From Sipunculus nudus (taxonomy: Eukaryota; Annelida; Sipuncula; Golfingiida; Sipunculidae), in NCBI GenBank assembly GCA_026874595.1, contig CM049310.1, forward strand, positions 40,489,558 to 40,553,557: a DNA stretch of 64,000 bases, written 5' to 3'. Made by a program: the position numbers and the translations under genes. Positions 28,001-57,700 of the stretch are shown piece by piece. The notes under the pieces are model-generated. The model saw only the letters and a list, made by a program, of their open reading frames with translations. It did not search any database and was not told the origin of the DNA. The stretch's first letter is position 1, and each line of letters starts with the position of its first letter.

Positions 28001-28285
28001 TGTTCAGGGTCACGGGAGCAACACCAAAAGTGAAAATCATCTCATACAACCTGGAACGTAAAAAACAAATTCATTACCTGAATACATATATAATACATAT
28101 ATAATAAGATCCAAGTATCCGAAAGGGAAGTAAGTTCAAAATAAAGACAAAGGAAATTGAGTAAATCGATAATGGCGTATTGTTTGAACAGAGGGTGGAG
28201 CATTACTTTTTTTTATAAAATGAAAAGATAATTTTTTTATTGAAAAAAAAAAAACTGGTAAAATTATAAAAACACCATAGATAAT

Positions 28286-28538: not shown

Positions 28539-28616
<78 letters not shown>

Positions 28617-28761: not shown

Positions 28762-28909
28762 CTAGGCGGAGAGAGATGCCGCCAGGTCATCCACCTCAGT
28801 CACGTGTAGCAGGGTCGCTTCAGTCAACTCGTACATAACCTCGTGGTGAGCGAGAATTCTCATTAATCCACGCAGCTTCAGCCACCATAAGTCAGTTCCG
28901 CGTCTGAAC
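28762..28909 (-). CDS. PFK: Candidate alternative terminal exon of PFK (distal form)
   Basis: Read on the minus strand after tttccccttttag-type acceptor sequence, this exon gives FRRGTDLWWLKLRGLMRILA, then HHEVMYELTEATLLHVTEVD, DLAASLSA and a TAG stop. It aligns without gaps through WW.KLR.L.RILA with the proximal terminal exon and accepts the same incoming phase. No stop or frameshift interrupts it. A second in-frame acceptor six bases downstream (exon end 28903) would drop two residues. No other phosphofructokinase exon was found between 28910 and 39608. I infer an alternative last exon of the same gene; a decayed partial duplicate is the alternative reading. Confidence 0.72.
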
Positions 28910-31900
28910 CTAAAGGGGAAATATTAATACAATTATAAGTTGACTGTTGGTCGTGTTTCATCAGATTTGAGACAAAAGTCTTTGATCTTTCGCTATCATA
29001 TTCTTTACCATCTAATAATAACGGACATTGAGTTTGACTGTTGATCATGAGATACGGTGACAACTGTGTTTCCTAGTTTTAAACTGTTTTAATCTTAGGA
29101 AGATTTCCTCGATGACGGAATTATATCACTGTATACCGTCTTGCATTTCCGAAAGAATACACATACCATGCCGGATGGTTTTAATTCATATGTTGGAAAA
29201 TTTTATCGACATTGCATGGAATATTGATATATATCATGAATGGAAAAAGATGTCCACGCATTAACATGCAGGAGTTTCACTTTTGTCATGCAAGCTTGTA
29301 TAAAGGGTCAAGAAATTATCTTTGAAGCATATATTACCAGAAAAAATGTGGAAAGTGATTTTCTTTCCTTTGCTTAAAGGATTGAGGTTTTAACTATAAA
29401 TGTGCCCGAACAAATCTATCATGGGAAAGGACAAAGAAAATCTAGACACCGCAGACACCTCATTCACGCCACCACAATAAAACTATGGACCTTTAACATT
29501 GAAAACAATATTTAAACGGAAAGGGTGGTTGTCTGCGACTACCAAGCGGTACCAGCTTTTAACAAAGTAGTTGTAAGAGAATTGTCTTTTAAAAAATATT
29601 CCAGCAGGGTCGTAAACAGCAAGTTCTTCTCTGATACATGCAAATGTAACATTACAAAATTGCATATTTGATTGATAGGCCGACAACATGCAAACATGGA
29701 ATAGAAGGGTACAAGCACGATGATAAATGTAGGCCTACTCCGGACTGCACGTTATCTGATCGCACCGACATGTTAGCTGGCTTAGACTACCGCGGTCTAT
29801 ATCTATACACTTAACAAATTTGCAAAGTAACGGGTATATTGATTAACTGCGAGGGTACAGCATTACGAAATGTGGAAATGCTAAGTTAGACCTGAAAAGC
29901 TTAAACATTTTCAAGAAATTGAACAGAATTTGATCATCGTATAGGAGGCCCCCTAAATTCAACTCAAAAAATGTCCCAATTATCGAGGCCTTTTACATAA
30001 GGTGTCAGAAGCAGTGTTTATAAAGAAAGCTTGACCTCCTAAATGGTAATGACATATTAAGCGAAGATGCCTAACCTTTCACTGCCATGTTCACACTATA
30101 GTGTGGATTTTCAATTTTGTTTATTTCATGTTTAAAAATGAAATTTATATTTCTGTAGTCGAAATTAACAAAAAAATTAACTTAATTCTAGAAAGAAACG
30201 GTTTTGAGATAGTGTCATGTTGTTAGATATTAGCCCATTAAAGAGTGGTTTGTGTATCAAATTACAATTTCACATAAAAATATATGTTAATTTCATAAAA
30301 ACATGTACCAAACAAAGTGCTCTGTACCTGTTTAAAAATATTTTACGGGGTCTAATACGCATTTGAAAGAGCTTCTGGATAGATTTTAATTTCGGGGATT
30401 TGCAGGGATGGTACTTTAAGGCACCGGATTAATTTATACAGAAGCGCGAACTAGTCTTTTGTTAGTCGGTATATACCAAGTCACTTTCCATTCACCTGTT
30501 GTCGTACACTCACAAATACACTGGCATAAAGAACAAGTTGATACAAGTAACGACACACACACTTTATTAAGTAAGGATCGGTGTAAATATACAAATTTCA
30601 GCATACTTCATTTCAGTAAGTCCACATTACCGCCAACGTTTATTATAATACGTCTGTGTTTGCATGTCATGTTCATAGCACCCTACAATATAAAATATCA
30701 CCTCATCATAGCGTTACTAAAGAACATCATTTATCAGAGGATTATAAGAGATTTAATTCACAAAGAATTTGCATCTTTTAATGTCCACAAGTGACCCATG
30801 GTCTGTAGCGCTCAGACGAAATCCAAGAATATCGCGAATGCCGATATGGGCATTAGCCTTAATTTAAGGCATATGATAAGCTTTCAAATTTTGTCTTTTG
30901 ATTACCTTTTGTAGATCCTCTCTTACTGCTAAAACTCGGTGGCAGGTCCTGTCCACAGAGTCCTTTAAAATCATTTAAAGGCTTTACTCGTGGCTTAAGA
31001 CTGACACATTCAGTCGATGTGTGTTCATGTGCGCACAACCTGGACTGCTCAAAAACTAGCTTACGCTGACTGCAATTTATCCCCAAACAATACAAAGTTA
31101 ATTCTAAATTATCCAGCATACCTCACTTCAAAACAAATGTACCTCCATGTTAAACAGAGTCTAAAAATGCGGTATATTCATTGCTTTTTACAGGATGCTT
31201 CGGGCAGGTTTGGATGGACTTTTTAGAAGTTGTCAGAATTATTTATTGACCTAGTCCGTTTATATACTTAACTTCTTGATTTTAAGAAACCCTTTTTGTA
31301 ATCTTTTCTTTCCATTCAAACATCTCAATTCATCCAAACATCTTCCTCTCGGACACATTTAAATACGATCACCTACCAGCAGATATACATTTTACATTTT
31401 AAGTGAAACTGCTCTATATTCCACAGAAATAAACTAATTGTATAAGACTTATTAAAAGCAAAGCACACAATATCCAAGTAAAGTAAAACTACCGCGTACT
31501 TGCGGTTACAGGTACCGCAATTGAATATCAGCACAAACTGATGCGCGTGCAAGATACTGCGACTCATAACATATTATATCTAATTCCGTATTTGTCTGTT
31601 AAAGAAAAATAAAGGAATTTCCAGTGTGAGCATATGGGTAAGGAATGTTTCATTTCACGAATGAACGCGAAAAATCCTTGGGGTACGCTTAATAATGAAT
31701 ATGCGATCGTTTCACATAAAACGACCGATCGAATGTTTATTTCTTTTGCCAAATATTAGCCGTAATCGTTCCTGTGATTATAATATCTAAATTTTTTAAA
31801 GCACTGTCCACTTGAAAAACATGATCACCCAAGCTCTTAAATATTTGGAAAAACAAGGGACCCATGGGTCACGGCGCTCAGCTGTTATATATGAAAAAAA

Positions 31901-33099
31901 AAATATGATTTGGGAAAGAGGCACATGCTTGTTTTGTGTGGTAATAAATATAAGCTTTATTATGAGTTGTTGGTGTTTAGCTTATGTATGATTTTGATAG
32001 TATCTTTGGAGACAGGGAAGAGGATTGATTTCATTTATTTTATTAAAAAAAAAGAGTGCTATTGTCACACAGATTTTGACTCGGCTATATAACTTATAAG
32101 CAGCACATATTATAAAAGAGTTTAACTATTTATTAAAATTTAATAACAAATATTGTGCCATAATTTTTATTAAAAAAAAAAGAAAGAAAATCATATGATT
32201 TTTTAAAATAAAATATAACTGAAATGATTATAGAAATAATATTATAGAATATATTCATGAATGTATTCATGAATACATTTTGAAAGTATCTGCACTGGTA
32301 TTCAAATACTTTCATTTTTACCTGAATTCCAATTCTTATGCAATAAAATTTTTTAATGCAGTACATATTCATATTCGTATTCAAATACATTTGCAAAGCA
32401 TTCGCACCATGTCTAGTATTTATTCAGTTTTAGCCAAACAAAGATGTTGAGAATCCAGAATATACAAAATTCACAAATTTAAATATTGATCATAAGTACC
32501 TGGTTTTATGGCTTTTATTTATATTAAAAAAAATAAATGTAATATATTCAATTTGGACTATTTTCACATCAATCTACACACTAGACACAGTAGGAATCTA
32601 GATTAATATTATCAACTGCATCTTTGTCTATCATTATTTTCCTTCATATGATCCCTAATGATTAGTAATGAATAATATGATTTATTTTTTTAACATTAAA
32701 ATTTCACTGAAAAATACCATAGGTGACTGCATGGTGTTATTTGGAATAACATTGACATTGACATTCTATCCATCCATACAAGATTCTTACATCATCAGTA
32801 ACTGCAAGTTAATTTTCTGTTACTCATCAACTAACAAATTCCTTTTCTATTTATTTTTCTTTAACTTGTTATAAAAAAAAATACAAAAATATTAATTTAT
32901 TGTTTATTGTTATGTTGTTTTTCAAAACAACTACTAGATGAGTTGGGTTGGGCACCTGGATCAACTGTGGCTGGCCATTAGCTGCCTGGCTGCCCCAGTG
33001 TATGCTTTGCTCAAGCATGCATAATGTGATGAAAGGTCAACAAGGTCAACATACAGGTGACTGAAGAGGGGCTGGATTAAGCCTGGGTCGGACATGGTC

Positions 33100-34490
33100 T
33101 CATATAAACATTAATAAAAGCTACAAGATTTGGCCAATTTCTTTCAGCTTTCTAAACTACAAAGATGAAATCCTTATGTGTGCATGATATGAAAATTATA
33201 TCAACAGTGCTCTCAGGAAACAAACGTGCCATGGTCAAAGTTGGGCAAAATTTAAGGTACTAATTTTATATTTATACTAATAACTTATAAAATTTGAAAA
33301 ATTCAGAACTAATTTTTGGTATTCAATTGAATCTTGATTAAATAATGTTACATCCCTGACAAAAAATCTCTAGCTTCAGCAATCCTCTTGTTAAGGGAAT
33401 AAATATATTTCTTGATTTTTTAAAAAGTGCATTATGTTTGGGCCCATAACTTGAAACAATTACGCATTACTGACATCATTTCTGGCATGTGCATAGCGAA
33501 TGTATAGAAAAATATGTATATTATATGATCAAAGTCAGATAAGTGGTTTTGATATTAGGCAGTCTTACAGTGTAACAATGGGTTTTTAATGGAACAATGA
33601 AGTATTTCATTGATATTTCGAAGGGATTAAGTCCTAGTGATAAAATTCTTGGCATGGTAGGGGATTTTGGAGACATCTAAACTGTATGCTAAATTTAAGG
33701 AACTTAGAGCTGAAGCTGGGGAGCTGAGCTCTAGCAAACTGCATAACACTAGCTTGATGTAAACTTGATGTGACATGGTGCTTGAAAACTTGAATAAAAT
33801 CTACAGTTTTTGATCAACTGGTTTCAAATTTTTGGTGTTAACAGACAAAATGCTAACAAAAACATGTTGTGAAAATTAAATCCACAGTACTAACAGGAAA
33901 AAAACGTGCCATGGTCAAACTTGGGCAAAATTTAAGGTACCAATTTTAAATTTAACAGATTTTGATCTAATTTTTGGTATACAATTAAATTTTGATCAAT
34001 TAAAGTTGTATTACTGAAAAAAAGTCCCTACCTTTAACACTTTTGGTCTTAAGTCACCAAATATCTTTCCTGATTTTTTTTACAAAGTCCATTATGTTTG
34101 GGCCCATTACTTTTTTAAATTTAAAATACTGACTTAATTTCTGGCATGTACATAGGAACTATATAGAGGAATATTTATGGTAAATATGAAGAAAACCAGA
34201 TGAGTGGTTTTGATATTAGGCCGTCCTGAAGTGTGAAAATAGATTTCTAATAAAAAAAGGTTTTTCCTTAATATCTCGAAGGAACGAAGTCCTATTGACC
34301 AAATTTTCGGCATGGTAGGAGATTTTTGGGACATCTAACTGTATGGCAAATTTCAGATTCGTAGGTCCAATGGTGTCGAAACATGTCAGTCTTACGGACG
34401 GACATCCGGACAGACAGACGGACGGACGACGGACAATGGACCATAACTATAGCTCAGATGACTTATAGTCAGCTGAGCTAAAAAAAACCT
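33100..34490. repeat. Dispersed molluscan-type intronic repeat, two tandem units of about 0.68 kb
   Basis: Two units share cgtgccatggtcaaa.ttggg (33227 and 33906), gtttgggccca (33434 and 34098) and tttttgggacatcta. The second unit ends in acggacggacgacggacaat, then tatagctcagatgacttata and gtcagctgagctaaaaa. Further copies lie at 55540-55660 and 56640-57300, and the end module is also at 49690-49785. Confidence 0.7.
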
Positions 34491-34840
34491 GCAGATTTTA
34501 ATCAGACAGAAATAGTAATTACAAATGATGGGACTATGATAAAGTAGTGCCTACCATAACTAAATTAATATAAATGATATGCATGACATAATTAACGTGA
34601 AAAAGTCGATGAACAAATAAATGTAATATTCACGCAGCATGAAAGCTCACTGATCGAAAGCTTCACAACTCAGTCCTCTGACAGGACAATAAATCACAAC
34701 ATTAAAAGAAAACACACCATTTCAATTGTTCAAACACTCAACTAACCGCAGAGTTTACTCAATGTGGACTTTCCTTTGTCACGGATTTCGATGTTAACTT
34801 CCGTTTTTGTGATTAACATCTGATGATTAGTATTTAGTAC

Positions 34841-34845
<5 letters not shown>

Positions 34846-34896
<51 letters not shown>
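34846..34896. repeat. (TA)n microsatellite
   Basis: About 25 uninterrupted AT dinucleotides. Confidence 0.93.
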
Positions 34897-34899
<3 letters not shown>

Positions 34900-35229
34900 C
34901 TAGTGTTGTATGTGCATGGTGCTTGTCTGATGTTTTCTACCATACTTTTCTTTCATGGTGCTCAACCTGAAACTAGTTGGTTTCTTAAGTTATGTTAAAG
35001 TAACGGAAAAGGGGGAAATTATCAAACATTTACACACAAGGTATTTGTGTTCTCAAAACGCCATCAAATTTCATTCAAACTTAAAATGTCGTACAAACTT
35101 TACAGAAATAATTATAATTTAATTTCGAATGACTGAATCACTGTTACAATATAATATCCACAAAAGCAAAACCTAGAAAAGAAGTCAATTTGTTCATGTT
35201 GAATCGTTTCTATATTTCTGAAGTAGGCA

Positions 35230-35560
35230 CAAACGTTTTCCACATACTAAAAGATATGCTGAGAAGTAACTTGTCATCCACCAGCTTGTCACATGACCCA
35301 GTACTGCTGGAACACTGGAACAACTTGTCACGTGATCTAAATGACCTACGCCTTTGGACAAACATTTCATAGGATCTAAACTTACTAGACCACTGGGCCA
35401 CCCAGTCACATGATCTTAAACTGCGACATCTAAGCAAACACGCCAGATAAATGGTCTGTCATATTATCTAAATGGTAGACGGTTGGACCATCTTTATCAT
35501 TATCTATACCTAACAGGTCACTGGATCATAATGTCACATGACCTATAACATGTGGGTCAT
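35230..35560. repeat. Degenerate repeat with recurring gtcaca/gtgatct motif
   Basis: cttgtcac.tgatctaaa and ggacca..tgg blocks recur about every 45-60 bases. Strongly diverged and non-coding. Confidence 0.35.
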
Positions 35561-38500
35561 TGGCTATTTCCTTACACTAATCTTGCAAGTACAAATGAAG
35601 AAACAAAAGGTTTTAGTCGGGAAAAAATATAACTTCATGTACACGATACATTGATCTTTGGCTCACAAGTGAAAAAACAAGCTTACTATCTACAACCTCA
35701 TGGATACTGTTTTCTGATTGATTACAGCTTTATCGTATGACCAAAAACACTAAACTTTCAATATAACAATATATTTCGAGAAAGCATTTGGGCCATGGGT
35801 CTTGCCACTTGGCTGAAAATCTAATGTCCACATTCATGAGGTTACGACAACCTAGTTTACGTGCTGCAAGTTCAACAGCAACCTATGTCACTAATATCAA
35901 GCAGGATCATAAACGTGAGTAAAGCCAATTTTACAGATTTTTTAGCAGCAATGTTTTTGCAGAATCGAATTTTTAGAATACACAAAATCAACCCGAATTT
36001 TGCAGCAGTGGTAACGGCAAGAAACTGTGGCAAGATTAAGACCACATAATAGTGACTGCAAATGAAACCTGACTGGCGTGCCAAGAACACCTGATATCAA
36101 AGTCAGTAACAGTTCTTGAGCAAGTGTTATCTAGACGACATTTAAATTTCCCACCTGTCTCTACATTGGCATCTTTTCACTGTGAAAACAACTGGGTACT
36201 GGCGTATCCTCCTCATAAGCAGCTTATATATATTAAAAGCTGGAGGGCCAGGACGTTTAAACTCTTACGGGTAATATAGACTGGTAATATAAACTAGATT
36301 TGCTATTTTGTGTCACATCAGGTTAATCCATGTAATTATTTATTTTTGGTTTGAACATATATATTTGGACAGAATTATAAAGGTGCCATTGGTTGACATA
36401 CGTGGTCCATATTGGTGGCAGACTTTATTACTAACTGCCGGGCAGTCTAGGCTACTCGTAGACTGCCTAAGCTGAACAAATAGTAAACCACATTTACCAC
36501 TGTGAGCACACAGTCAACAATTCCAAATAAAGTTGAAAAAAAAAATTACACAAGCATTAAACTGGTCTCTCTGTATTAAAACAGGATAAGGTTTCATGGC
36601 ACAATACCTGGTCCATATGATTTTTGTATATATTAGTCATTACATGACAAGCTCAACATAATGTACATTAAAAAAAGATTCATAGCATTTGCAAGCAACA
36701 CACAGAAATTAATGGATTTAGAAATATAAACATATCAACCTTGATTAAGAATACATGTAACCTCCTTTGGTAAAAAAAAACACTAGTACCGGATATATTT
36801 GGTGCTATCACGTATTGAGATGGTGATTATATAAACAATTACAATATACATAATCAGTAACACTAGGTCTGCTAATAATAACAATGGTACATAATCTAAT
36901 ACAAAATAAAAACTTTGAAACTTAAAGCACCTGGAGTATCAAACATGAAAACACAAAATACTTGAAGAAAGTTTTGGTTCCATCTTTAGAAATACGATTG
37001 GACAAACCCATATCACTTAACAAGTCAAGTTTTCTATCACAACTTCTAACCATGTAAATAAATTAGAGGTGCATGTGAACCTAATTTTCTGTTTCAATAA
37101 CACTCTTACATTCATGATACTTAAGTCTATATTTTTTTTATATTACAATCCCATAAATTTAAAAATTCAGCAAACTCACACTCTGATTTATTTAAATATG
37201 GTGTATTTAAGCCATCTATCTTTTTTTCTTATTTTCTGATTGGTTTTAGTCACTATGCAACAAAATAATAATAATAAATCCAACTGAAACAAGAGAAATC
37301 CACTTATGGCACATTTCAGGTTTTTCAGTCTTTTACCATATCATGAAGAAACATCAATTCAAATTTCCCACAAATAATAATGTTTCTATGAAAATGTCAA
37401 CAGCACCAACAGTTGTTTAAGTAGACAGGAGAGCTTAAGAAAACTGCAAAAGTGTAATCAAGCAGTCTGCATAATTCTATTTTGGTAGGCTTTCTGGAAA
37501 GAATAAACATTCTAAGATGATTTGTATTGTATGGTGTGTGTGTAATTAGGTTTTCATCACTGAAACCAACAACAGCAGGTATTGCACAAAATGTATGATA
37601 AAACTGGACTGTCCACATCATGTCAATATAAACAAACTTAGTCCCAAAAAAAGGAATGGTTCTCAAGCACTTTTTTATAAATCAGTGCGGGCATGAGGTT
37701 TTTTAATTACCTTTTTTTGTATGTTTTGAAAGAATGTCATATGATCAGGGAAAAGCATGATAATACCATAATTTTTTTCATAACAGGTAAAAGCACTACA
37801 TAACAAAGGTAAACTTATCAAAACTGTATTATTTTATCTTCCTATAAGCTGAAAATCAAAATCAAAATTTTTGATGCAAGGTTAAAATTGATGTAGGCAG
37901 TGCCTAAGAACCATACCTTTTAAATTTTTTTTCCTTAGCTGTATACCGGTATGTAAAGTTTGGAAGCAAGATCAGGAAAGGAAGAATAAAGTGCTGCTAT
38001 GATAAGTTTCATACAAAAGTCAATATTCCACTTATAACACTATTAATAAAATATACAAAAATATTGTCATGAAATCCATACAGATAAATTCTCTACAAGA
38101 TGTGTGCTCCAAGGGTGAAATCTCTGGACAACTGCCTGTGTTTGTGCGCATGTTTAAGAAAATACAGCTGAGATTCTGTACAGTAACCAGAGAGGGCTGA
38201 CATGGTTATAAAGTCCCAGAAAACTTGAGCTGCTCTTTATTCTCTTTAGATAAACACCCTGGGTAAAATTCCATTTTGTACAAGTTCAGTGAGTGCAACA
38301 TAATGATACCAATTTGCCTTAAATTGTCCAGGAACAGGATCAAAAACAACTTTAACATAAACCAGCAAGCCATTCTCCATAAGAATATTCATTTACACAA
38401 CCTCCCTTTGATTCAATGGAATATATATGAGATATTAATTTAGAATCCTAGGTCTATAAGGATAACTTTGGTGGTCATGATTGTCTGTTATACATATCTT

Positions 38501-39608
38501 AGCCTCTCATACAATTGAATCATGTTCTCTGCAAAACACAGTAGAAATCCATGCAATATTCTGTCTTCTGGATCATACTCAAAATAGGCTGACTGAATCT
38601 ATATGTGCACACAAATTTCAAATGTTTAAAAGAAAAGATAAAACTATGTGAATAGTTTACAAGACATTAAGGGGCAGCAGTGATTTATACACCAAACCTA
38701 TGAATTAATATAAACATCAGCACACATCTAATATGAGACAGGATGCAGTCTAAATAACTGCTTATATATGGTTGTAATATTGCATACACATGTGGGCATC
38801 CACCAGAGTACTGTAGCCATATGATGCCAAAGGTTTTAAATACATACATGAAAGAGGATTTTGTGTTGTCACTCTTCACTAGTATAAATTTAGCACTTCA
38901 CAACTACACTCACAGAACTGGTATATGCACATTATCTGGGGATAAACTTAGGCTTTTTAACAGTGCGTGTTTGATACATCACAGGCCAATGAAATAATTA
39001 CCATGTGAACAAGCTATAAAAACCATATTTTTGTTATTAAGCATAGCTGGAATATTGTTGTCATAGTATTGTGTAAATATTACACAGTTTCAAAGACAGC
39101 ACATGAACAGCTATATATGTATCATGGTACTTAAACCTTCAGAGTATTTGTGCTGATAATATTGTAAACTCAAAGAATTCAGATTATCCTACATTATGAC
39201 GAAGAACCTTTCAGATTTATAAATTATAAGCTTTTTTTAGTGGACATACATTCAGACTGCTTGTCACTGCATTATATAATACATGCAAATATTCACAAGT
39301 GAAATATGTATCACAGTGAATTCAACCTTTGTCCATAACTTCAGCTTATTGTAATATAATAATGTATCATTTATACTACTGTAACATAAAATGTTACAAA
39401 ACACGGGACCCACATTGAGGGTTCATTCTGTATAATAAAGGCCTAAAGCTGATCCCTAGATAAAGAACATATACCTGAATACTTGCTAAGTATCACAGTT
39501 ATATTTTGTAGATGGTTAAGAAGATACAAGCCACATGGGTAAATAAATTATACATAGTTTAACGTTGGCAGCCAGCACAACTATACAACAGGATAGAAGC
39601 CAGCGTGA

Positions 39609-39750
39609 TTAAGCCAACATGGTGTCTGCATGGTCCACTTCTTTCGCGCGGCCGATTTCACTGATTTTTTCATACGTAGACTCATGCTTGGCAAGGATAC
39701 GCAAAAGGGGACGCAGCTTCATCCACCATGCAGTACCTGGGAGGCGGTGC
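39609..39750 (-). CDS. PFK: PFK terminal exon (proximal form)
   Basis: Encodes [20 protein letters not shown], then [26 protein letters not shown] and a TAA stop. The WW(L/M)KLRP(L/I)L(K/R)ILAK block is the conserved C-terminal signature. Acceptor tctgtgttacag with a good pyrimidine tract. Confidence 0.95.
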
Positions 39751-42700
39751 CTGTAACACAGAGTTAGTAAGAAAAGGCTGAAGGGAAGAACAGCAGGAAC
39801 AAGAACTGTAACAAACAGCCAAGAACAAGAAAACCACTCCTGTACACGGGAACTCTTGAGATAAAGGCAAAAAAAACTCTCCATGAAGGCCCCCTCTTTA
39901 TCATCTGCTTTTTTAATTCTAAATCAATTCTTATATTAAGGTTTGTAAAATTCTCAACTGAGGGATTTACAGTGTACATGGCTGTAGCTTTCAACCATAT
40001 CTAATGATCATCATCAGCAGTGTAGCCCCCATAACAACAGCTGAGGTGTTGTCACACGACCACAATGATCATGTGACAAGTGGTGGTAGATCTGTGGGAG
40101 GCCCAGGTCTTGGTTTAGAGTGCGTCGGTGGCATTAGATGTTTAGTGCCTCCTTCACTTTCCTTGCAGTCATGCGAGTCACTGTCAAGGGCACTACACTG
40201 CTGATGATGATGGTGAGATATGGTCCAAAGCTACAGCTGCGTAAAATTTAAGTCCCTGAGTTGAAAATTTTACTAACCTTTGTGGAATCTCCAGGGACAG
40301 GACCCAACATACATAGTTTAATACATATATTGTCTTAATGCAATTTAAAGCTAGCTATTCACTTACATTTTCTACAGACATTATTTGATTTCTGCCTTAC
40401 TCTGGATACAAATTAATTAACTCTAGGTAATTCCTGTTAATCAGAGTGGGACTGGTGAAGTGAGGCATGGATTGAGTGGCAAGGGGAAATAGAGTGAGGT
40501 GTGTTGTATATTAGCATGGATTTCTGCAGCCGAAATGTGTATGTAGATTGGGCCACCTACCACAAAATCCAGAAAATTGTCCAAGATGTATAAACACGCA
40601 AAATTTTAGACAGATATGTCAAACCACTGCCAAGATATGAGTGATTTTGTCCCACGGCAGACAAACAGACAGACGCTGTGCAAAACTGATTGCAGGTGGC
40701 GCCACCAGTTTTGCGTATGATAAAGAGCTATGTGAGATCAACACACATGCAAATTTTCAAGAAGATACATCAAACCAGTCGGGAGATATAAGCATGGAAG
40801 TCTGCAGCGTGAATGTGAATGTAGGTGGTGCCATCTGTCATATAATCAAGAAAGCTATCCAGGATGTATATGCATGCTGAATTTCAAGTGAATTAGTCAA
40901 ACCACTGCAAAGATATGAGTGATTTTATCCCAAGGCAGATGAACAGATGGACACTGCGCTAACATGGTTGCAGGTGGCGCCACCATTTTTTGTGTATGTT
41001 ATAAAGCTACCCATGGGCTACATTTGTACAAATTTTTTTTCCTGATCGGTCAAAAGGTTCCTGAGATTTTTGGGTTTATGTGTGGAAACAGACGCACGAA
41101 TGGACGCTGGGCAGAGAGGAAAGGTCAGAGGTCAACGCCAATTGGTCAGGCACCAGTTCACATGACCCGATAATTGGTGTAAGTTTTCGGAAAAATCAGT
41201 CCAGTAGTCTCAGAAGAAACGAATGGGGCGGTGGCTGAAACAGGTCAAAAACATAGTATCCGCAAAACATTTTGGCGGATACAATTATAGGCATAAGGAC
41301 AGAGTGTGGGTATATCATAAAATGTCCTGTCAGAGATGAGCTTATGATAAAAGCAAACTCTGAACAGTTCTACTGCTTTTTCTTTGCACTATTTTAGACA
41401 CGAGTTCCCATGTACATTTTGGGTAAAATACTTTTTAGTTTGAAAATCATCATTCAGGAAAAAAAATCTGAAATTGACACAAAGACTATATCAAGTGATA
41501 CCATGATGAATTTATCATCCAAATGTTTGTGCATTGTCACACGGTGGTACATACAAAGATGTGCTAAAATACAGTTTGCTCCAGCTAAATTAAAGTGTGT
41601 TCAAGCTCAGCTATAGTCTGTTCTAGTTCATCTTAAGTCTGTTCAAACGAAGTCTATAGCCTGTTGGTTGCACTGTCTAATGAATAAGGCTGGGGTGAAT
41701 CAAGACCTCATAACCTGTGGTTGATATTTAAGAGTGAATCTCATGTTCTGTCAAGCTTTCTCTGTTTCAGATATTGAGATCCTGGTGAGTTTCAAACCAG
41801 TGACCTTCAGCTAGGAAGTTTCACACCTTACCCACTATCCCCCTACCCCATTTAGTTATATATTTTAGCTGAAATTAGAATTATGACATACCAGACAGGT
41901 CTTTCTGAATATCAACAACAGGTCAACCAATCTTGTAAATTTGAAGAAAAAGCGGACTATATAAACACATATTTGGCAGGTTGTGCATATCTGGACTGTA
42001 ACACTGAACTCTTGGGTGACTACAATCACAACAAAACAAAAGAAGCAGAGTTTCTTACCTGAAGTCTGTTGATTCCTTCAGCTCCGTGACAGGTGTGAAC
42101 AAGCTCTGTCTACTGACCATACCCAGCAGAGTGGCTGTGTCAGGGGTGTCACAGTACACAGAACCTGTTAACAAACAATACATTACAGCACCAGTCTGCT
42201 TTTTAGCTGTCAACAGTTATACAAAAGGCTATTATTCAAATAGTAATCGGTCACATTCTCAATGACTTTGTGCAGAGTTTATGTGTTCACCCATATCTCT
42301 TACTGTCTGTTTGTTCGTTTTCATACACATGATATATAAGTCACTAAGGAATCTCAAATAATGCAAAGATGAATTTATTAGGTTTAGAATCTTATGTGGA
42401 CTGACAGGTGGATAGAGAATCACTTTGTATGAACGTACATCTGTCCTCATGTAATTTTAAAACAAGGTGTACTGGCCTAATGCGAATCATTGCAATGGGA
42501 TATACATCAGGTAAAATGCTTCCATGCTGGACCATTACTTTTCAAGTACATGTGAGACATGTATATGTACAATGCAAGTACTAAACATTTTGAACCCAAG
42601 TATAAGCACAAATTTCACTCCTGAAATACTGGCATGGATGTGCACAACATAAAATGACTGTAGGTGGCGCCTCCTGTCTTGTGTATGAGAAGACCATTAA

Positions 42701-45700: not shown

Positions 45701-48700
45701 AGTTATCACAGTGAAGCCACAAAGAAGACTGACAACCTCCTACCTCATTAAATATGCTCTAGGTTTGCCTAGAATCTAACTTGGGCAATATTGGTAAGTT
45801 ATAGTGAGTTTCATCAAAATCCATTAAAGGCCTGGTAGGTTATCACTTTTTGCGGCAACGCTAAACATTTTCACCAACAGACAGGCAGGTGGTGGGTATA
45901 CCATAAAACTTCCTGTCTTAGACCAGTGAATAAACACCTGGTTGCTGTTAAGTGAACTCACCATCTTCTCTTTTATACTTGTCAACCTGAGCTGTCAGGT
46001 ACTCTGCCACTTTACATCCCATCTTTGTACCCATGTTGCGGTCAAACGGGGAAGGTACACCACCCTGTGAATGTCAGATATTTTCATTGATATTACAATT
46101 CTATTAACTTTGTCTAAAATTTCAACTTAATCTTGTTATTATTTTATTTGAAAACTGTAAGGAGACAGGAATCTGGTTCACTTCCTGATTCACAATACAC
46201 AATTCAGTTCAAGCTTAAAATCTGGATCTTTACCTTTTCAGTATAATCCTCACTCAGTGGTTATACTTTGCAGTCATTCTATATCTCCTTTGCTTTAACC
46301 GCTGCTATGATAAGCACCACCAGGGTTGGAACAGGGAAAAGAACTGTAATCTGACCAATGAGTGTGGCATGGTATTGTGCATCCAAGTTTCAAACCCATG
46401 ACACCCTGCTCTTGTTGGTTTAATGCACAATTCGATACCATGCTCTCATCAGTGTGATTATAATTCTTGGCCCTGTGCCAGCCCTTGTGGTGAAACCCTG
46501 AAAAACTTGCTAAATATAACAGCAGTTAAAGTGAAGGAGATCTGGAATGGCTGTAGTGTACAACTGCTGTGTAAGTAGTGTAAATTTATAGTAAAACCCA
46601 TGAAAAAAAAAAATTTTTTTATATTTAAACATAGTATAAGAATTAAAGTATTTTTTCAATATTCTACATTGATCATAACTGCAACATACAGAATTTTCAC
46701 CTTGAAAATTTTCTTTCACCAGCATATTCAGCTGTTATATTCTAACAGGATGTAACAGTATTACTAATGCACCAATTAAAACCGTGCTCACTAACAAGAG
46801 TCATCCTTGCAGGGCTTTTGAAGAACACACCCTATATACATTTTCGTACCTGTTGCATATGGCCGAGCACGTTCATTCTTGAGCTGAAGATTCCCTTCCC
46901 CTCTTCATTGTACAGGCGGTGGATAAAGTCGGTGGTGTAGTTGGGGTTGGCATTTTCATTCCTATGGATACGAAAATAACAGTCATTAAAAATTTCAAGC
47001 AGTTATATTTGAGACTCTTTATTTTATAAAAAGCAAGGTTATAGGCAGGTTCAATTTTATTTAATCACTCTGCACAATATTAATTTAACAGAAGTGCACA
47101 AATTTTTATATCACTTAAATTACATGGCTATTTTTTCAAACGTTCTCTAGGATATACTGTTATGGCCATTTATTTGTATAAAACAAACAAGTGAAAATAT
47201 TTTCTTGAAAATCTTCACTCTTTCTTTGTTCTACAATAATTGCCATGAAGTAATATAACAGCCATGGATGAATCTAAGCAACTAATCTCCATTCCATTTT
47301 CACTGTGTACACATGGGTGGGTTTAATGGTTAATATGGGACCTTCAGCTGGACCAAGAAGTTTCCAATTTAAAACAATCCTGTATTTTTTCAGTAATTCC
47401 TTGTTTTCTGTTTTATTTGGCAGAGGGCTGGCTAGTTCATTATCAAGATGGCTGGATACGACAGACCATAATATCTTGTAATATGAAGCTAATAAATTAA
47501 TAGTCTGTCCTTTTAACTGACACACAGTGACTCTCATTGCAGAATATCAACACTACATGAGTCATGTTAAATAGACCCGATCATTTGTGAGGTTTACTTT
47601 ATTCTGAATTCAGAAAAGCAGAATGGATAATGATAGTGAATGATTGATGTGAATTCAGATTTTACAAGTTCAAGCAGTGCATACAAAAAGGCAGACAAAG
47701 TGAAAGAAGAAGGAATGTCCCTGGTTGAATTAAAATGTGTTTTGATGATAAAATATTCTTCCCCTTTCACATAGGAATTCTGCATTTCCATCAGTATTTT
47801 CCAAATAATGCAAACTACCAGGCATTACATCTGTTGTACAGAGTATTCTAGACCCAGACAGACTGCAGACAGCTTACCTTAGGATAAGTCCTCTCTTCAC
47901 ACCATCCTTAATCTTGGCAGCCATGTGCTTCACATCACCCTGAATCAGTGATAGGTCTCTATTATATAAATTATCAATTCTATCTACTTTCCTCTAAAAC
48001 CACAACCAGATAATGGAATTATATATTATCAGCTGCACAAAAACAAACTAATTCATCTGTAATAATAAGCTTTCAGAAATCATAACCTATATCCTTTCAG
48101 TTGGATAATTTGCACTTCTATATGTCTGAACATTTCATACCTTAACTGAGCTCATCAGTCAATACATATCATGCTAAACTGTTACTTAAATTGAAAAGAT
48201 ATCTAACTCATCTGTCCCATGGAAAATGCATTACACTGGAATAATATAATTCTTGATACGTGAGTAGTGTACGCTCCCGAGGCAGCGGAAATAATACGCT
48301 TCTAAAGAAGCAACTGATTTTCACGCTGCCAGCTTTGACTGTTTATGATATATTTAGACATCAGATGGCGGTTCATTGTCTGCTGAACAAAATGTGCGTA
48401 TGATGTGACAAGCAGCCAACCAGATGCCAATAAACAAACACGCAACAGGCATCCTGGCTCCGCCCATAGCTGCGCTTCAAGCACCGTTTGAAGACAAGTT
48501 TACGTTCGAATTTTAATTGCTCCCTCTGCATTCTCGACTCATTGACCGATTCAATTCTGACAGACGTAGCCATGTGTCTGGTGTCTGCAGAACTGAAACC
48601 AGCCAGCGAGGTGTGCACGCAGCCTTTGTTGTTACATTTCGTTTGAATTACAGCTCACCTACTGGGCATCCTATGTGCCCAAGGCCCTTAGTAAACCACG

Positions 48701-51700
48701 TCTGCGGCAATTCTCTCTGAGCCTGTGGCCTGTTCATACAGTTACCGGGGCGATGAGCTGTCACTCAAAATGAAATGAACATGATTGGCTCCGTGGATTC
48801 CTCGCTTGGCCGTGTCTTCCAGCACAAGGTCTCATCTGATTGGACAAAAATACAGTGCTCCCTCTGGTGTAGCAATTCAGGTTACGAGGTCATAACAAAC
48901 AGCGCTTACCATATAGAAAGTAGGCCTATAGTTGAAGCGCTGTGTAAAGAGTGAAGTAGTAGTGGTGTGCTAATTAATTAAATATATCAATGATTAGTTA
49001 ATTTCCTTTCAAAATTGACAAAATTGGTTGAAATTTGCATAGTTGTTCACAAACAATTATGGATAATCATTCAAAGGAGTCATATTATCCATATAAAATA
49101 TTCTAATTCTGTAAGAGATATAAGAAAGATCTGACTCAAAAATAGCAAAAAACATTAAAACTGAACCTTGTGCAGTCAATAACTGTGTAAATTACTGGCT
49201 GTTACATTTTTCAGTCTGGTGTACAAGTCATGCTCAATTTACTCTATCAATATATAATATATAATTCTATGTAGCAGATATCACAGAAATACAGTAGATA
49301 CATAAAATAACTGATTAATAAGCAATCTTCAGTTGTTTCTTTCTCTCTCAGTCTTCAAATATGATTTTACAGCCAACTGCAACCACTAGTGAATACTATT
49401 AAAATTTCAACAAGCTGGATCTTCCTCAATTAAATCATCTTATATTACATCATATAAAATAACATATAACAATTGACCTAGGGGGCATGACACTCAGCTG
49501 ACTATGAAAACATTCACAAAGAAATGTTATCAATGCCAAATTTTGTAGGTGGTATCCCCATTCAACTTAAACATAGCTCGGAGTATATGGGTAACAGGGA
49601 CCTAATTTCAGGTTTTCAAGGAGATTTTTCATGGACCTCCCTAGATATGCAGCTAGAAGATTCCAGAATCAGCGGTTATGATTTGTGCCTGGTTAACAGA
49701 TGGATGGACAGACGGATGGACGGACGCCAGACAAAGGGTAATCACTATAGCTAAGATGACTTTCAGTCAGCTGAGCTAAAAAACCTGACACCCTGAAGGT
49801 CTAATTAACAATAAAATCCCTTATCATGAGAATATCTTCATCTTCATTAGGCATACAACATCCAATGCAGGTAATGGACCGTAACTAAAGATACATAATA
49901 AAATCCTATGTACCTGAAGGTCATGAATCGTATATTTTTCCTCATGGATATAAGCAGCATCTGCTCCACCCGCAAGGCCACTCAGGGTTGCTAGGTAACC
50001 ACAGTAGCCTCCCATGGTCTCTACCACAAAAACGCGGTTTTTGGTTCCCGAAGCGGAGAGCTTGATTCTATCACAGATCTGCAGTAAATCCATAAAACAG
50101 TTGGTCATACATAATTGTAGTATTATTTTAATAATAATAATATTTTCATTAAGGTGCAACAGGTAATATTCGTGTACTAAAAGTACAGACTTGTGAAAGT
50201 TAAAATCCAGCCTCAGAGGGCTTATGGTGCTGTAATCTAGCAAGTGCACTAAAAAGAAATTTCCAATTGATCAATTGTCATATACATGTGTGGCACACTG
50301 TGCAGTTTCAGTTACCATATCTGAGTTACTCACAAGTGTTAGAGTTTTCCACTGTTTGATATTGTATCAATAGAATTCCCAAATTCATCCTAGCAACATC
50401 AAACAAATCATTTTTCACACATCAAGAGCGGGTGCAGTTTATTTTCATAATGTACAGCTGATATTATCAATTGCAAAATAACCTCAAATTTCGTAATTTT
50501 TTTCCCTGATAAAAAAGGTATGTTTATATGATCTTTTGTGCAGGTTAGTGGGTTGCAAATGTTAGCTTTGTGCTGGCCGGCAGAAGCCAGTCTCGGCTAC
50601 CTCCGACCAATGTGGCTCTAACCCTTGCCATGACTTATTTCAGATTCTAGGGAATGTAATTTTGAGTATATCAGATTCTAGTGAATGTAGCCATGACTTA
50701 TATCAGTTTCTAGTGAATGTAGCCATGACTTACATCAGCGATTTCATTGAGAGCTGTGTCAGTTCCCACAGAGAAGTCCGTGCCGGGCACGTTATTGCTG
50801 ATGGTGGTTGGTATGATGGTCATCGGGATACACAGCTCTGGATACTTTGCACGAGCCTCGTGCATCATCAACACGCTGTGGAATGCCTGGTGTAACAGAA
50901 AATATAGTTAGTAATCATGGAATATTACAGATATCTTAATGAATGTCTTTAACATAAAATTTAACAAATTATTTGAATTAATAATTCCTTTCTTCCAGTA
51001 TGTTCATTACATGTTTATGGGCATGGGCATATGCAGACACAATAACACTGTGTATTCATAATAATATCTGTATTTATCAACTGTATGAAAAATTTTTTTA
51101 ATATCTGGGATGATTACTGACCTCTTCAACCTTGATTCACATAATCATACACAAATATACTCTTGTTAAGATTTTTTGTAGGGTTAAAACCCTACAAATC
51201 ACTGAGAAAATTGTGAAAATTAATCACATATACATGAAGAAAACTACAGTATATTGGTCCTTTAGGAGGCTGGGTTAGTTAATTATAAAGTTAAACTGTG
51301 CTTCACCTCAAACCCTCCTATGCACAACAGTCCATGGATGTTGTGTCTCTTCAGAGCAGCTGCCACTTTGTCTAGACCGATGTCCTTTGGAAGAGTTCTG
51401 AAACAGAAATATGAAGACATTCATTAATTGTGACAAATATTCAAGTCATTATTCAAGATTAACACTGTTCATACACAGCAAAGAAATTTCCAGGTCTTCT
51501 TTCACATTTTCCAGGACAAAATAATGAATACAATGGTAAATCCAAATATCAGGAAATAATTATCCCTGCAGATGAACAAATGATAAAAGAGACAGGAATA
51601 TTGGATGACATTAAATCAACAATATAAGTTTTGGTCAGTTTATAAATTTGCATTATTTTAAATTTCAAATATTCACATCTGGTCTAACCAGTTTTTCAGG

Positions 51701-54700
51701 TTGTTTAATACTAAATTCCAGGACATGCTGAAAACCCCTGTTTTTCAGGACTTCCAAGGCTTTGATTTTGAAAAGGTCATTTTCCAAGACTTTGCAGGAA
51801 ATCAAGGATGCATTCAAGTACTGATTAAGAAGATAATGACCTATACAAGTTTACTGTACAATCAAACTGTAACTGCAGAATCAAATCAACAGTCACAGTT
51901 GTTGGAGACACAGCTGATATTTTCATTAGCTCTTCTCCTTTATTTCTGGACTATTTTTCCGTCTACTTGTCTTATCTGATTGGTCTTGGAGATAATCTTC
52001 TAAACTTTTATATATAAAATTTGGAATCTGCAGGAGTTGTCTCCTGAGATATAAACTTTCTGTGATGAGCAGTTCATTCCATACACCTTGAGAAATTTTT
52101 TTTTAAGGCCTTCTAGCAGGATTTTTAAAAAGTACTGAACCAATCTCCAAGCTACTTTTTTGAAGAAGGAACATGGGCAAGGGAAGACCCCATATAATTT
52201 TAGTGCAGATCCAAATAAAGCGGCCAATCTGGTAAAACTTGATAGAGTGCAATTTTGTTATTATTAAAATGATGCACTGCACTGAAAACCACAAATCTCA
52301 GTTTGACTTGTAAGGTCATTGGGATCAAAGTTCATGAGGAAGCAAAATTCATATAACCTATCAGCTCAGATAACCTTTAATACTATTTCAAAACATTTAA
52401 TTTGCAATTTACTCTGTCATTGTTCATCAAACTGCAAATAAAATGTGAGTTTCAATGATCAGTTACCTGTTAGTTCCAAGACGGCTTCCTCCCAAACCAG
52501 AATATCCATGTACAGAAGTCCAGCTCATTGGATTTACCTGGAAAATAGACAACACAACTATAAACTGGTGAACAATACATTTATGCAAAACTTTTGTCTC
52601 TCTTAGTCATATGGCTTGGTGACATGGCATTACCAATGCGGTAATTGACAGCCTTTATTTAGTTTAACTAAACAAAACATTTGTCCATCAATGTCAGTAA
52701 GATGATATTGTTTGCTTAACAACATACATGTTTATAGATACATTGACTTATTGCAAGAGAGCACTCCGAGCATGATCAGTAAAAGGATTACTGTTCATTT
52801 CTGGGCCTTTTCTTTGAAATTTACACTAAAATCACCTGTACAAATACAATAATAAGCCTGTCACATCAATTATTACCAAACAATATATCGTCATTTCACA
52901 AATGTAGATGCTTAACTGGAATGAAAATCAAGTCCTACTGGTATTAGTGTATAACAGGATGTCTGAATATGCTACAACACATGATGTACCGTACAATCTC
53001 ATGTACTAGCCAGACCTGTGTATAAGATGGTCCAGAGTTTTGAGGTGGAAGAGCAGGGAAAAATGTTTTTGGGTCCTAAGGATCATGAGGAAGTCCCAGC
53101 TCATAGCAGCTGGGCAGACATAGTCATTGAAAAATTATCTATAACGTAATCTTATCTTTGCAGGTAAAGAAGGTAAAAACTGAGTAACGTTTAATAAAAC
53201 TTAATTACTTAGTAGTAATTTTCATAGATAAAATATTGTAAATTTAGTATATTGCAGAAATGAAGATCTTGTGACGCTCAGAACTGGCAGGTTGGCGATA
53301 ATAGAAGAGCCATGGGTTTCTCATACTTACCGTCATTGCTCATCAATTTTAATCCTCTGTTTATTGTTAATGTTTAATATCAGTAATACATTACTATTTA
53401 TGTGTTAATAAAACATGACTGTTGTTGACTTGCTGTTGCTTATCTACATTTTATATAATCTTAGTTGTAAAGAATGCACAAAGTTAGACCACTGGAATCA
53501 AAAGATAAGGCCAAGAGAAAGAGCTTTCTGTCCTTAGCTCAGCTTGTTTTTATCTGTGGATCACCGGCAATAATTTTTGTTGTCAGAGAATTGTATTACA
53601 CATTCTGTGAACACACAATAACAAGTTTTACTCAAGTTTTAATTAACATAGGTTTTCCTTTTCTCAACAGACAGATGTACTGAAGAACTATTACACTCAA
53701 AATAACTGCATATATGCGGCGCAAGTATCCATCATAGCGAACTGCATGGAGAGGCTAGGGAGCTTTGGCAACACGTGGACAAAATGTCCGTCATTCTTTG
53801 ATCAAACTCTGTCTTCTTATTCCATAAAAACTGGCATCCTGTCTTTTTTATGAGTTTTCCTGTGTTAAACCTATAATCCACAATCTGTGGAGTACTTATT
53901 CTTATTGTGTCCTTTTGTCCAATAACGTTGCAATATCAATGTCACTTTAGTCAGATCTGTTTTAGCCAGGATCCCAGTCATTCACTAGGAATTGGGGTTA
54001 TTTTAAGTAGGAATTTCTGAACAGAGTGACAATTTTCCCCCCGCGTGTCATTACACAGGTGCTTAGCGTGACCTATTTTAGGGCTTTTTGCAACAGGCTG
54101 CTTCCCAGTACAAGTGTACCGTCACACACCAGCTCTAAATGATTCTGAACGTATCCTTCTGCTGTTTTGCACTAGTCAAGCCAACATTGGTTTATCGGAT
54201 AATATCTTACCTGGTCTTTTGAAACAGAGATCTGTACAGATATTGTTTTTCAATTTGATCATGACAATATTGTCCTGCAAAGAAATCAATCTTTTTGGCA
54301 GAGTGATTTGTTTATATGGGAGTATAACCTGGGTTAGGTTCGCAGAGCCTGCTCAGTGAAATGCACGTCGTTGAATTCTTTGCGTGCATGTTGGTCATAT
54401 ACAATTTTCTATGATCAGGAGCTGTCATATGGTCAAAAGTGGGTAAACAAGGACAAAATGCGAACTCGATCTGTAAGTGGTCATTTTGCTACCACACATC
54501 AAATATCAGGCCAATATCTGAAGCCACTGCAAAACAAGGGACCCATGGGTCATGTCACTCAGCTGAATTTTGGAAAATATTAGTAACAGCAAAATATTTT
54601 TATTTCTTTTGGTTTTTCATGTATATTACCATTTGAAAAGCTAAGAGAAAATTGCCCTGCTGAAATGGACCTCTGTAAATTGTAGAATAATGGACATTAG

Positions 54701-57700
54701 CTAAAGCATATGCACTGTGTAATAAATGAAATTTTTGGCCTGAAACCATTTAGTGATGCACCTAGGAAATAAATCGGCCTATGGTAAGTGTTATAAAAAA
54801 GTTACATTTCATAAATAAATAATTTGTGAAGGTAATTAAGTTTTCAAAAGTTAAATATATGGCCATAATAGTTAAAAATTAATCCCACAAAGTTTGACCA
54901 ATATTCCTGATTTTAAATCTAAGTTTAACAGTGTTATTCACACCTAGGCTCGGCCCACTTTAAGAGATATGAATGAAATGCTACAAAGTATTTATATCTT
55001 ATTAAATCTTGTTAAATCTATCTTAAATCTATCTCATTTGAATATAGGATTAAATTCCTGAACATTTCTTTCTTTAAAAAAAAAATAAAAATGTCCAAGT
55101 CTCAACAAAAAGAATTTATTTAACATTAAAATTATAAGATTTGTCTTATTTATTAGTCCTGTGTATTGAAGGGGTGGGTGGGGGAGGGGTCTCTCTTGTA
55201 ACTGTTTGTTGCTAAAAAAAAGTGAAATTATAAGATTAATCTTGTTTATATTACAGGTCTGTCAACAGAATGGGGTGGGGGGGGGGGGGGGAGAGAGAAA
55301 GGCTCCCTGTGGTATTAACTGCAGACAGCCTGATCAAGATCAACAAGAGTGAGGGCTTGCCCCAGTGATGGGATTATATAACATCAGGGGAGCATAGGGA
55401 TGCACCAAATGACCTACAGTGACCACAGTGGACTGCTTGACAATGTTAGGGAATACAACAAGAGCCTAAAAAAAAATTCAATAACTAGCCTAATTTTGCA
55501 GCTTTTATTTTCAAATTTCAGATTTTATCAGATTAAATTCTTATGTGTACATGCTATGAAAATATAATCCAGAGTAACACAGGAAAAAAAATGTGCCGTG
55601 GCCAAAGTTGGGCAAAATTTAAGGTACTGATTTTATATATATGCTAATAACTTAAAACTAGGGCTCAATGACAGGGGGGGGGGGGGGGGGAGAATTACAA
55701 CACCCATGGATATTAATACAGAATACGGAATAAAAGTCAATGGTGCTTACAGGGACTGGTGGGAGTTACAGCACCTCTGCATATACATAATGTATAAAAT
55801 TTAATTTAAAAGAAATTATTTTTAAATATTTAAAAACAGGCAGAGAGATGGAAAACAAAGCAAATAACTTTAATTTCCATTCTACTGGGACAGGAAAATA
55901 ATGAACAAATATTTGATATGATCCTATTTTTTTTTGTTAAGTCATTTTTTTTTAAGTTTATAAATTTTACTATATATTTGCAGTATATCATATATATCTG
56001 AATATTTGAATTGATTCACAAATCTAAATTGCATCAACATTTATACTAAATTTAGTCAGGTTACATTAAATTATGCACACAGATATATTTTTTTTATAAA
56101 ATATTTTTAATTTTGCAAAGCAATAATATATATGAAAATAACACTCCAGAATTCACAATTTTAAATTTCACCTTTATTTATCCATGATTTGCTACAAATA
56201 TTATCAAATTATGCCTACTGATGGGTTAAATTATATTTTGTTTAATTATTTAAAAGGAAATAATTTCTTAAAAATGCTACATTAGAACAACATGGCATCT
56301 CTTGGATTACTCCTTGAATTAATATTTCAAGAAAAGTTGTGCACACTGGATCAAAAACAGCTTTACATTTAAAGAAATACAGTTGACAATAAAAAACCAT
56401 GTACTGCAATATAATTGGTGATGGTGGTGGTGTGTGTGGGGGGGGGGGGGGGTTAGGGTAGGGCCCATGAGAATAAATGTATGTTTATTACAGCAGGGCC
56501 GTTCTGCCAGTGCTGCATCACTAATAAGGGTACCTAGGCAAGCGTGTAGTGAGCAAGAGTGGGGTCTTAGATGTACAAAATGCAAATACATTAGAGCATC
56601 TGAAAAACGTCAATAATTAGAATAATTTTTAAGCTTTCATTTTCAAATTTCAGAATTCAACAGATTAAATCCACATGTATCCAAGCTGTGAAAAATAAAT
56701 TAAATATACTTATGAGAAAAAAAGGTGCCATGGTCAAATTTGGGCAAAATTTAAGGTACCAATTTTATATTTTTGCTAATATTTTAAAAAATTTAAAAGA
56801 TTTTGATCTAATTTTGGGTATAAAATTAAATTTTGATTAATTAAAGTTATATTACTGGAAAAAAGTCCATAGTTTTAACATTTTTTTGGTGTTAAGTGAC
56901 CAAATATTTTTCCTGATTTTTTACAAAGTGCAATATGTTTGGGCCGATAACTTTTTTAAATTATATAATACAGACCTAATTTCTGGCATGTACATAGGAA
57001 CTATATAGAGGAATATTTAGGGTAAATATGAGGAAAAACAGATGAGTGGTTTTGATATTAGGCAGTCCTGAAGTGTGAAAATAGATTTTTAATAAAAAAA
57101 TTGAGGTTTTTCCTTAATTTCTCAGAGGAACAAAGTCGCAAAGACCCAGTTTTCCGTTTGGTAGGAGATCTTTGGCACATCTAACATTATGCTGAATTTA
57201 GGATTCCTAGGTCTTACGGTTTCAAAACGTGCCACATCTACGGACGGACGGACAACGGACAATGGACCATGACTATAGCTCAGATGACTTATAGTCATTT
57301 TTCATGAAATGTTTTATGTTCAGGAGCTGCATACGGTCAAAAGTAGGTCAACCAGGACAAAACGCAAACTCCATCTGTAAGTGGTCATTATGCACCAATT
57401 AACCAAAAATTAAGCCAATACCTGCAAGCTTTGCGAAAAAAAGTCTGTACATGTGCATTTGTCATAAAAATTCCTAATTTTCATGAAATTTTCTATGTTC
57501 CAGGGTTGTTATACGGTCAAAAGCAGGGCAACTGGGACGAAATGCAACTGCTCATTACTGCCCTCACACCAAATATCAGGCCAATATCTGCAGGCATTGC
57601 GAAAAAAAGTCTGTACAACTGTTTCATTTAAAAAAGACGGAAGGACAGAATGACGGACATGGGTAAAACTATATACCCTGGCCACTTTGTGGCAGGGGCA

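Follow-up and report, generated by a model that had tools for sequence, protein, structure and literature searches.

The gene for 6-phosphofructokinase (PFK) of the sipunculan Sipunculus nudus appears to possess two alternative last coding exons. A short open stretch at 28909-28762, which lies 10.7 kb downstream of the standard last exon in the same gene orientation, is probably (at a rough probability of 0.75) a functional alternative last coding exon of an apparently single PFK gene, as judged from the genomic sequence. The window, i.e. the whole stretch of 64,000 nucleotides that was analysed, corresponds to C5:40489558-40553557 in a genome of 1.43 Gb and 153 contigs, and positions are given in window numbering throughout. 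Both last exons are present at the positions that the first-pass annotation had assigned to them (Table 1).

The PFK gene and its two ends

On the minus strand, the PFK gene extends from 89264, outside the window, to 39609; its 3' part falls inside the window and its 5' part lies just outside. The model includes 20 exons upstream of the last exon, from 89264 to 42059, with exon boundaries picked by eye, guided by splice signals and by the human protein, and 11 of these exons lie upstream of the window. Among the modelled donors, 19 are GT and one is GC, and the 20 upstream exons joined to either end contain no internal stop. The first coding exon being left out, the model comprises 760 residues if it closes with the standard exon and 762 if it closes with the second. 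The 760-residue form begins MNAAVRAV, and a human PFK-M probe is matched by the PFK exons from probe residue 29 onward. With two fused PFK domains and a C-terminal extension, the gene is a eukaryotic ATP-dependent 6-phosphofructokinase gene. Outside the window, the intron before the exon at 74414-74289 carries a repeat (about 74415-75158, minus strand) with at least four imperfect copies of the first 40 bases of that exon (82-92% over 36-40 bases; one with an in-frame stop), and, judged by these copies, the repeat is seeded from the start of the exon.

The penultimate exon, 42164-42059, ends ...GACTTCAG, followed by GTAAGA; it leaves AG in phase 2 and joins the standard last exon, which reads AG/GCACCGC... 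to TAA, in frame. The second last exon reads TTTAG/GTTCAG/ACGCGG... and has two acceptors 6 nt apart, at 28909 and 28903, both in phase. It accepts the same phase (2) as the standard exon and stays open to its own TAG, in agreement with what had been stated earlier of its incoming phase, frame and stop. Its translation from 28909 is R-FRRGTDLWWLKLRGLMRILAHHEVMYELTEATLLHVTEVDDLAASLSA.

Table 1. Features discussed in the text, in window numbering (all on the minus strand).
Feature	Position	Strand	Remarks
PFK exons inside the window, eight further	45962..58360	-	splice signals and human protein, by eye
PFK exon	58360-58214	-	
PFK exon	52537-52467	-	
PFK exon	51397-51307	-	
PFK exon	50886-50734	-	
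PFK exon	50078-49914	-	
PFK exon	47939-47878	-	
PFK exon	46961-46850	-	
PFK exon	46064-45962	-	
Penultimate PFK exon	42059..42164	-	shared splice donor, phase 2, CAG/GTAAGA
Standard terminal PFK exon	39609..39750	-	47 residues including split Arg, stop TAA
Candidate poly(A) signal, nearest AATAAA past standard stop	38236..38241	-	about 1.37 kb downstream
Second, diverged terminal PFK exon	28762..28909	-	49 residues including split Arg, stop TAG
GTTCAG between the two acceptors	28904..28909	-	inner acceptor gives exon start 28903, two residues fewer
Candidate poly(A) signal, nearest AATAAA past second stop	28236..28241	-	520 nt downstream
Start of a different gene, likely a secreted protein	24893-25171	-	ATG at 25024, signal-peptide-like by eye
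EF-hand-like stretch	18935-19204	-	E 0.011, below Pfam's cut-off

The two last exons are homologous terminal exons of one gene and one orientation. In a tblastn search of the window, the best non-self match of each is the other one (E 1.4e-6 and 2.1e-6), and the next-best matches (E 0.61 and 0.55) are about five orders of magnitude weaker. A search of all 1.43 Gb with the second exon brought up two candidates, both of which were scored: the exon itself and the standard exon (E 0.009). The homology proposed by the first-pass annotation is therefore borne out by a reciprocal best match in the window and by the sole other match in the genome. An ungapped alignment had also been described; it holds for the first 28 residues, 16 of which are identical, and fails for the later ones. 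The EVD said to be shared is indeed present in both exons, but it aligns only after a one-residue shift, and the remainder of the second tail is essentially unalignable with the standard one. With human PFK-P (4xyj), phmmer gives E 8.9e-7 for the standard exon and a weaker match, E 0.0037, for the second. The second exon retains nine core residues that the standard exon has in common with human PFK-P. In the HR.P entry, its His and Pro are lost, as is the Pro of KLRP. Pfam was run on ten stretches, namely the two last exons and eight other open frames drawn from the 306 of at least 45 codons in 1-39600; the second exon went without a match and the standard one had a chance match only, so that the Pfam result carries no weight either way.

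Evidence for and against use of the second exon

The acceptor at 28909 scores 8.6, compared to 8.2 for the standard exon and 6.0 for the inner site at 28903, with a matrix built from the other 20 acceptors of the PFK gene (leave-one-out range 0.9 to 10.2). A score equal to that of 28909 or better is reached by about 2% of 3062 AGs on the minus strand, and on score only the second exon has a usable splice acceptor. Its composition is coding-like in AT-rich flanks, with a GC content of 0.54 (third position 0.64) in the exon, as against 0.25 and 0.33 on its two sides. Of 1397 segments of 148 bases from 25.2 to 39.6 kb, 4 reach this GC content, and all four probably come from a stretch rich in G at 26.6-26.8 kb.

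Between the second and the standard exon, pS is 0.59 over the first 28 codons, and pS and pN are 0.74 and 0.23, respectively, over core codons 9-28; since many differences are silent, the split between the two exons is old. If the 34 base differences had arisen by random drift, 16 identities in 28 residues would be reached with P 0.0001; no third-position excess is seen over these 28 codons (13, 9, and 12 differences by position; P 0.47). Pairwise tests of this kind share the branch of the standard exon, which is itself under selection, and thus they overstate the case for the second exon; pairwise dN/dS is likewise unable to separate the two branches.

Among the alternatives, the one that survives best, although it is unlikely, holds that the terminal exon or the 3' end of the gene was duplicated, that the copy was perhaps once used, and that it is now unused and not yet decayed. 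The divergent tail of the second exon and the absent third-position excess are consistent with such a relic. So are neutral simulations (20,000 runs each, with the present second exon mutated as a proxy), in which 49 codons stay stop-free with a probability of 0.23-0.73 under 5-30% neutral change. However, the split is old, and yet the core, the frame, the acceptor, and the GC content are all intact. In the same simulations, an unused exon keeps both core and frame with a probability of 0.28 to 0.07 at 5-10% neutral change on its own branch, falling to 0.02-0.0005 at 15-30%. Since the evidence on the second exon is mixed and the pairwise tests overstate it, a used exon is given the probability of about 0.75 stated above, and a relic only a small share.

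Other PFK copies and the neighbouring gene

A genome search with PF00365 gave at least 26 matches from 30 candidates. Among the matches listed, 6 are on C5, all inside the PFK gene studied; 16 occur as intron-free pairs on eight bacterial-looking contigs; and four are adjoining pieces on C125. Searched against the genome, the well-conserved PFK exon at 50078-49914 matched strongly only to itself; its one other match lies on C125 (E 0.3, 41% identity). Neither the PF00365 matches listed nor the genome search with this exon revealed a second animal PFK gene, in keeping with the earlier opinion that a separate gene copy is unlikely. Further convincing PFK exons were absent from the window and from 40 kb on either side, the weak extra matches having E 0.78 outside the window and 1.3, 1.6, and 1.6 inside. 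Three other places between the last exons reach 47% GC over 120 bases, and none of them matched PFK. A separate tandem PFK copy was rejected since no convincing PFK exons apart from those of the gene itself turned up upstream of the second exon in the stretches searched.

Two further readings were rejected as well. The 501 bases around the second exon match only themselves genome-wide, in a search that does not consider simple repeats or highly frequent words, which argues against a repeat carrying the exon. The flanks of the two last exons are dissimilar, their alignments being no better than five shuffles each, which argues against a duplication with still recognisable flanks.

The second exon may instead belong to another transcript, either that of a second PFK gene or that of a neighbouring gene with a captured PFK exon. 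Some room for this is given by a different minus-strand gene, the coding part of which seems to begin at about 25.02 kb, 3.7 kb downstream of the second exon, and an AG immediately in front of its ATG is a hint of a non-coding exon further upstream. However, that coding part begins past the second exon. The lack of other convincing PFK exons, the single strong match of the well-conserved exon, and the GC-rich places without resemblance to PFK all speak against another transcript as well, and overall this explanation is improbable. The different gene likely starts a secreted protein (MRLLLVIGLFYLAVGCHG..., from the ATG on the minus strand). It is perhaps the next gene past the second PFK exon, and the EF-hand-like stretch at 19.0 kb may belong to it.

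An assembly error or a chance resemblance is highly improbable, and the latter was rejected: the assembly includes bacterial-looking contigs and is therefore not perfectly clean, but there is no sign of this at the exon itself, which sits inside a 93 Mb contig with correct phase and position and with flanks found nowhere else, and which matches the last exon of the same gene at E 1.4e-6 in the window and has no other match in the genome. Overall, the first-pass reading of the second exon as an alternative end of the PFK gene has become stronger on the genomic side, with only one animal PFK gene and no other copy of the exon found, a strong acceptor, and a coding-like GC content.

The eight contigs with intron-free genes (C61, C62, C72, C74, C83, C89, C90, and C77; L001-L008) each carry two adjacent PFK genes, whose open frames are 442 and 421 residues long. 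L001, the one contig inspected, has a GC content of 0.35 and a flavoprotein-like gene beside the PFK pair. Compared to L001 position by position over 3927 bases, L002, L007, and L008 show 17, 14, and 44 differences, respectively, and L003-L006 show 961-2940, perhaps through shifts. These contigs seem to come from a bacterial associate, present as several related genomes or as copies. A COX1-type search gave 11 matches, nine of which are of closely similar score and lie on eight contigs (C60, C61, C62, C66, C72, C74, C75, and C89); five of the eight also carry the intron-free PFK pairs, and C89 carries two COX1-type matches about 2 Mb apart. C123 (L026, L027; 112 kb, GC 0.53 in the first 20 kb) is also among the contigs with COX1-type matches; its open frames, viewed by eye, suggest another bacterium, different from the first.

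A possible exchange of C-terminal tails

A proposed origin and use of the alternative last exon can be described as follows. The second last exon would go back to a terminal exon that was duplicated long ago. The PFK primary transcript would sometimes remain uncleaved at the proximal poly(A) site, or the standard last exon would be skipped, and the donor at 42059 would then be spliced to 28909 or 28903, across 13.1 kb, giving a PFK isoform that ends in a different tail. Since both exons are terminal and 10.7 kb apart, the choice of poly(A) site must be involved. There is no AATAAA within 500 nt of the second stop or within 1.3 kb of the standard stop, the nearest ones being candidates only (Table 1), and such hexamers are common here because the sequence is A+T-rich. 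A (TA)n array at 28542-28614 starts 148 bases past the second stop and could interfere with the mapping of reads to the 3' UTR of the second exon.

The exchange would keep the core WW.KLR.L..ILA and replace the last 20 or so residues. It would most likely tune allosteric or assembly behaviour, not catalysis, because the C-terminal part of mammalian PFK is tied to inhibition by ATP and citrate and to filament formation. In mammals, losing the C-terminal part removes ATP and citrate inhibition, and an ATP-inhibition motif has been assigned to the C-terminal extension (PMC3087806); in PFK-L, the C-terminal regulatory domain decides filament formation (PMC10778546). Since these findings concern larger parts of the protein than the second exon, the functional link is suggestive only. 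The same C-terminal segment, WW.KLR...ILA, is present in vertebrate PFK-M, PFK-L, and PFK-P (PDB matches).

The second tail adds RRGT just before the conserved WW core. By reading, this motif is retained with either acceptor, 28909 or 28903, and the standard tail is without it; RKLS, elsewhere in PFK, is common to both forms. We take RRGT to be a PKA-type consensus, and four-residue motifs easily arise by chance. It is a tentative and rather doubtful suggestion that, in this animal with an apparently single PFK gene, the choice of last exon yields two isozymes which differ in an allosteric or assembly tail, the second of them bearing a PKA-type site. If it were true, phosphorylation control of glycolysis would be placed on one PFK isoform only.

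The swapping of duplicated exons is well established: 236 human events are known, 77 of which exchange C-termini (PMC9741552). As proposed for the present case, the human events involve homologous exons of one gene and isoforms that differ only in the homologous region, and two of the examples keep 28/55 and 16/39 residues, close to the 16/28 found here (PMC9741552). Human PFKP is named among the genes with such a swap; in the available part of that paper, the event is tied to a residue that binds fructose-1,6-bisphosphate and is not placed at the last exon (PMC9741552). The PFK copies described here, by comparison, are terminal and 10.7 kb apart. Three mutually exclusive exons that form a cluster are listed for Drosophila Pfk, which like the present gene belongs to a protostome (PMC6071210); nothing in the present analysis points to a common origin of that cluster and the exon pair.

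The first-pass annotation knew of no description of such an arrangement in molluscs. Among the literature matches listed (open-licence papers, by titles and abstract openings), no pair of PFK terminal exons is described; exon swaps in PFK and swaps of C-termini, however, are already on record. Therefore, the pair of last exons is probably a known kind of arrangement in a new place.

PFK is a main control point of glycolysis. In vertebrates, the diversity of PFK comes from three genes, whereas here a single gene may have two ends. Should both of these be in use, an animal that has a single PFK gene could obtain isozymes by the choice of last exon where vertebrates use three genes, and a tissue- or condition-specific choice of last exon in PFK would be a directly testable switch.
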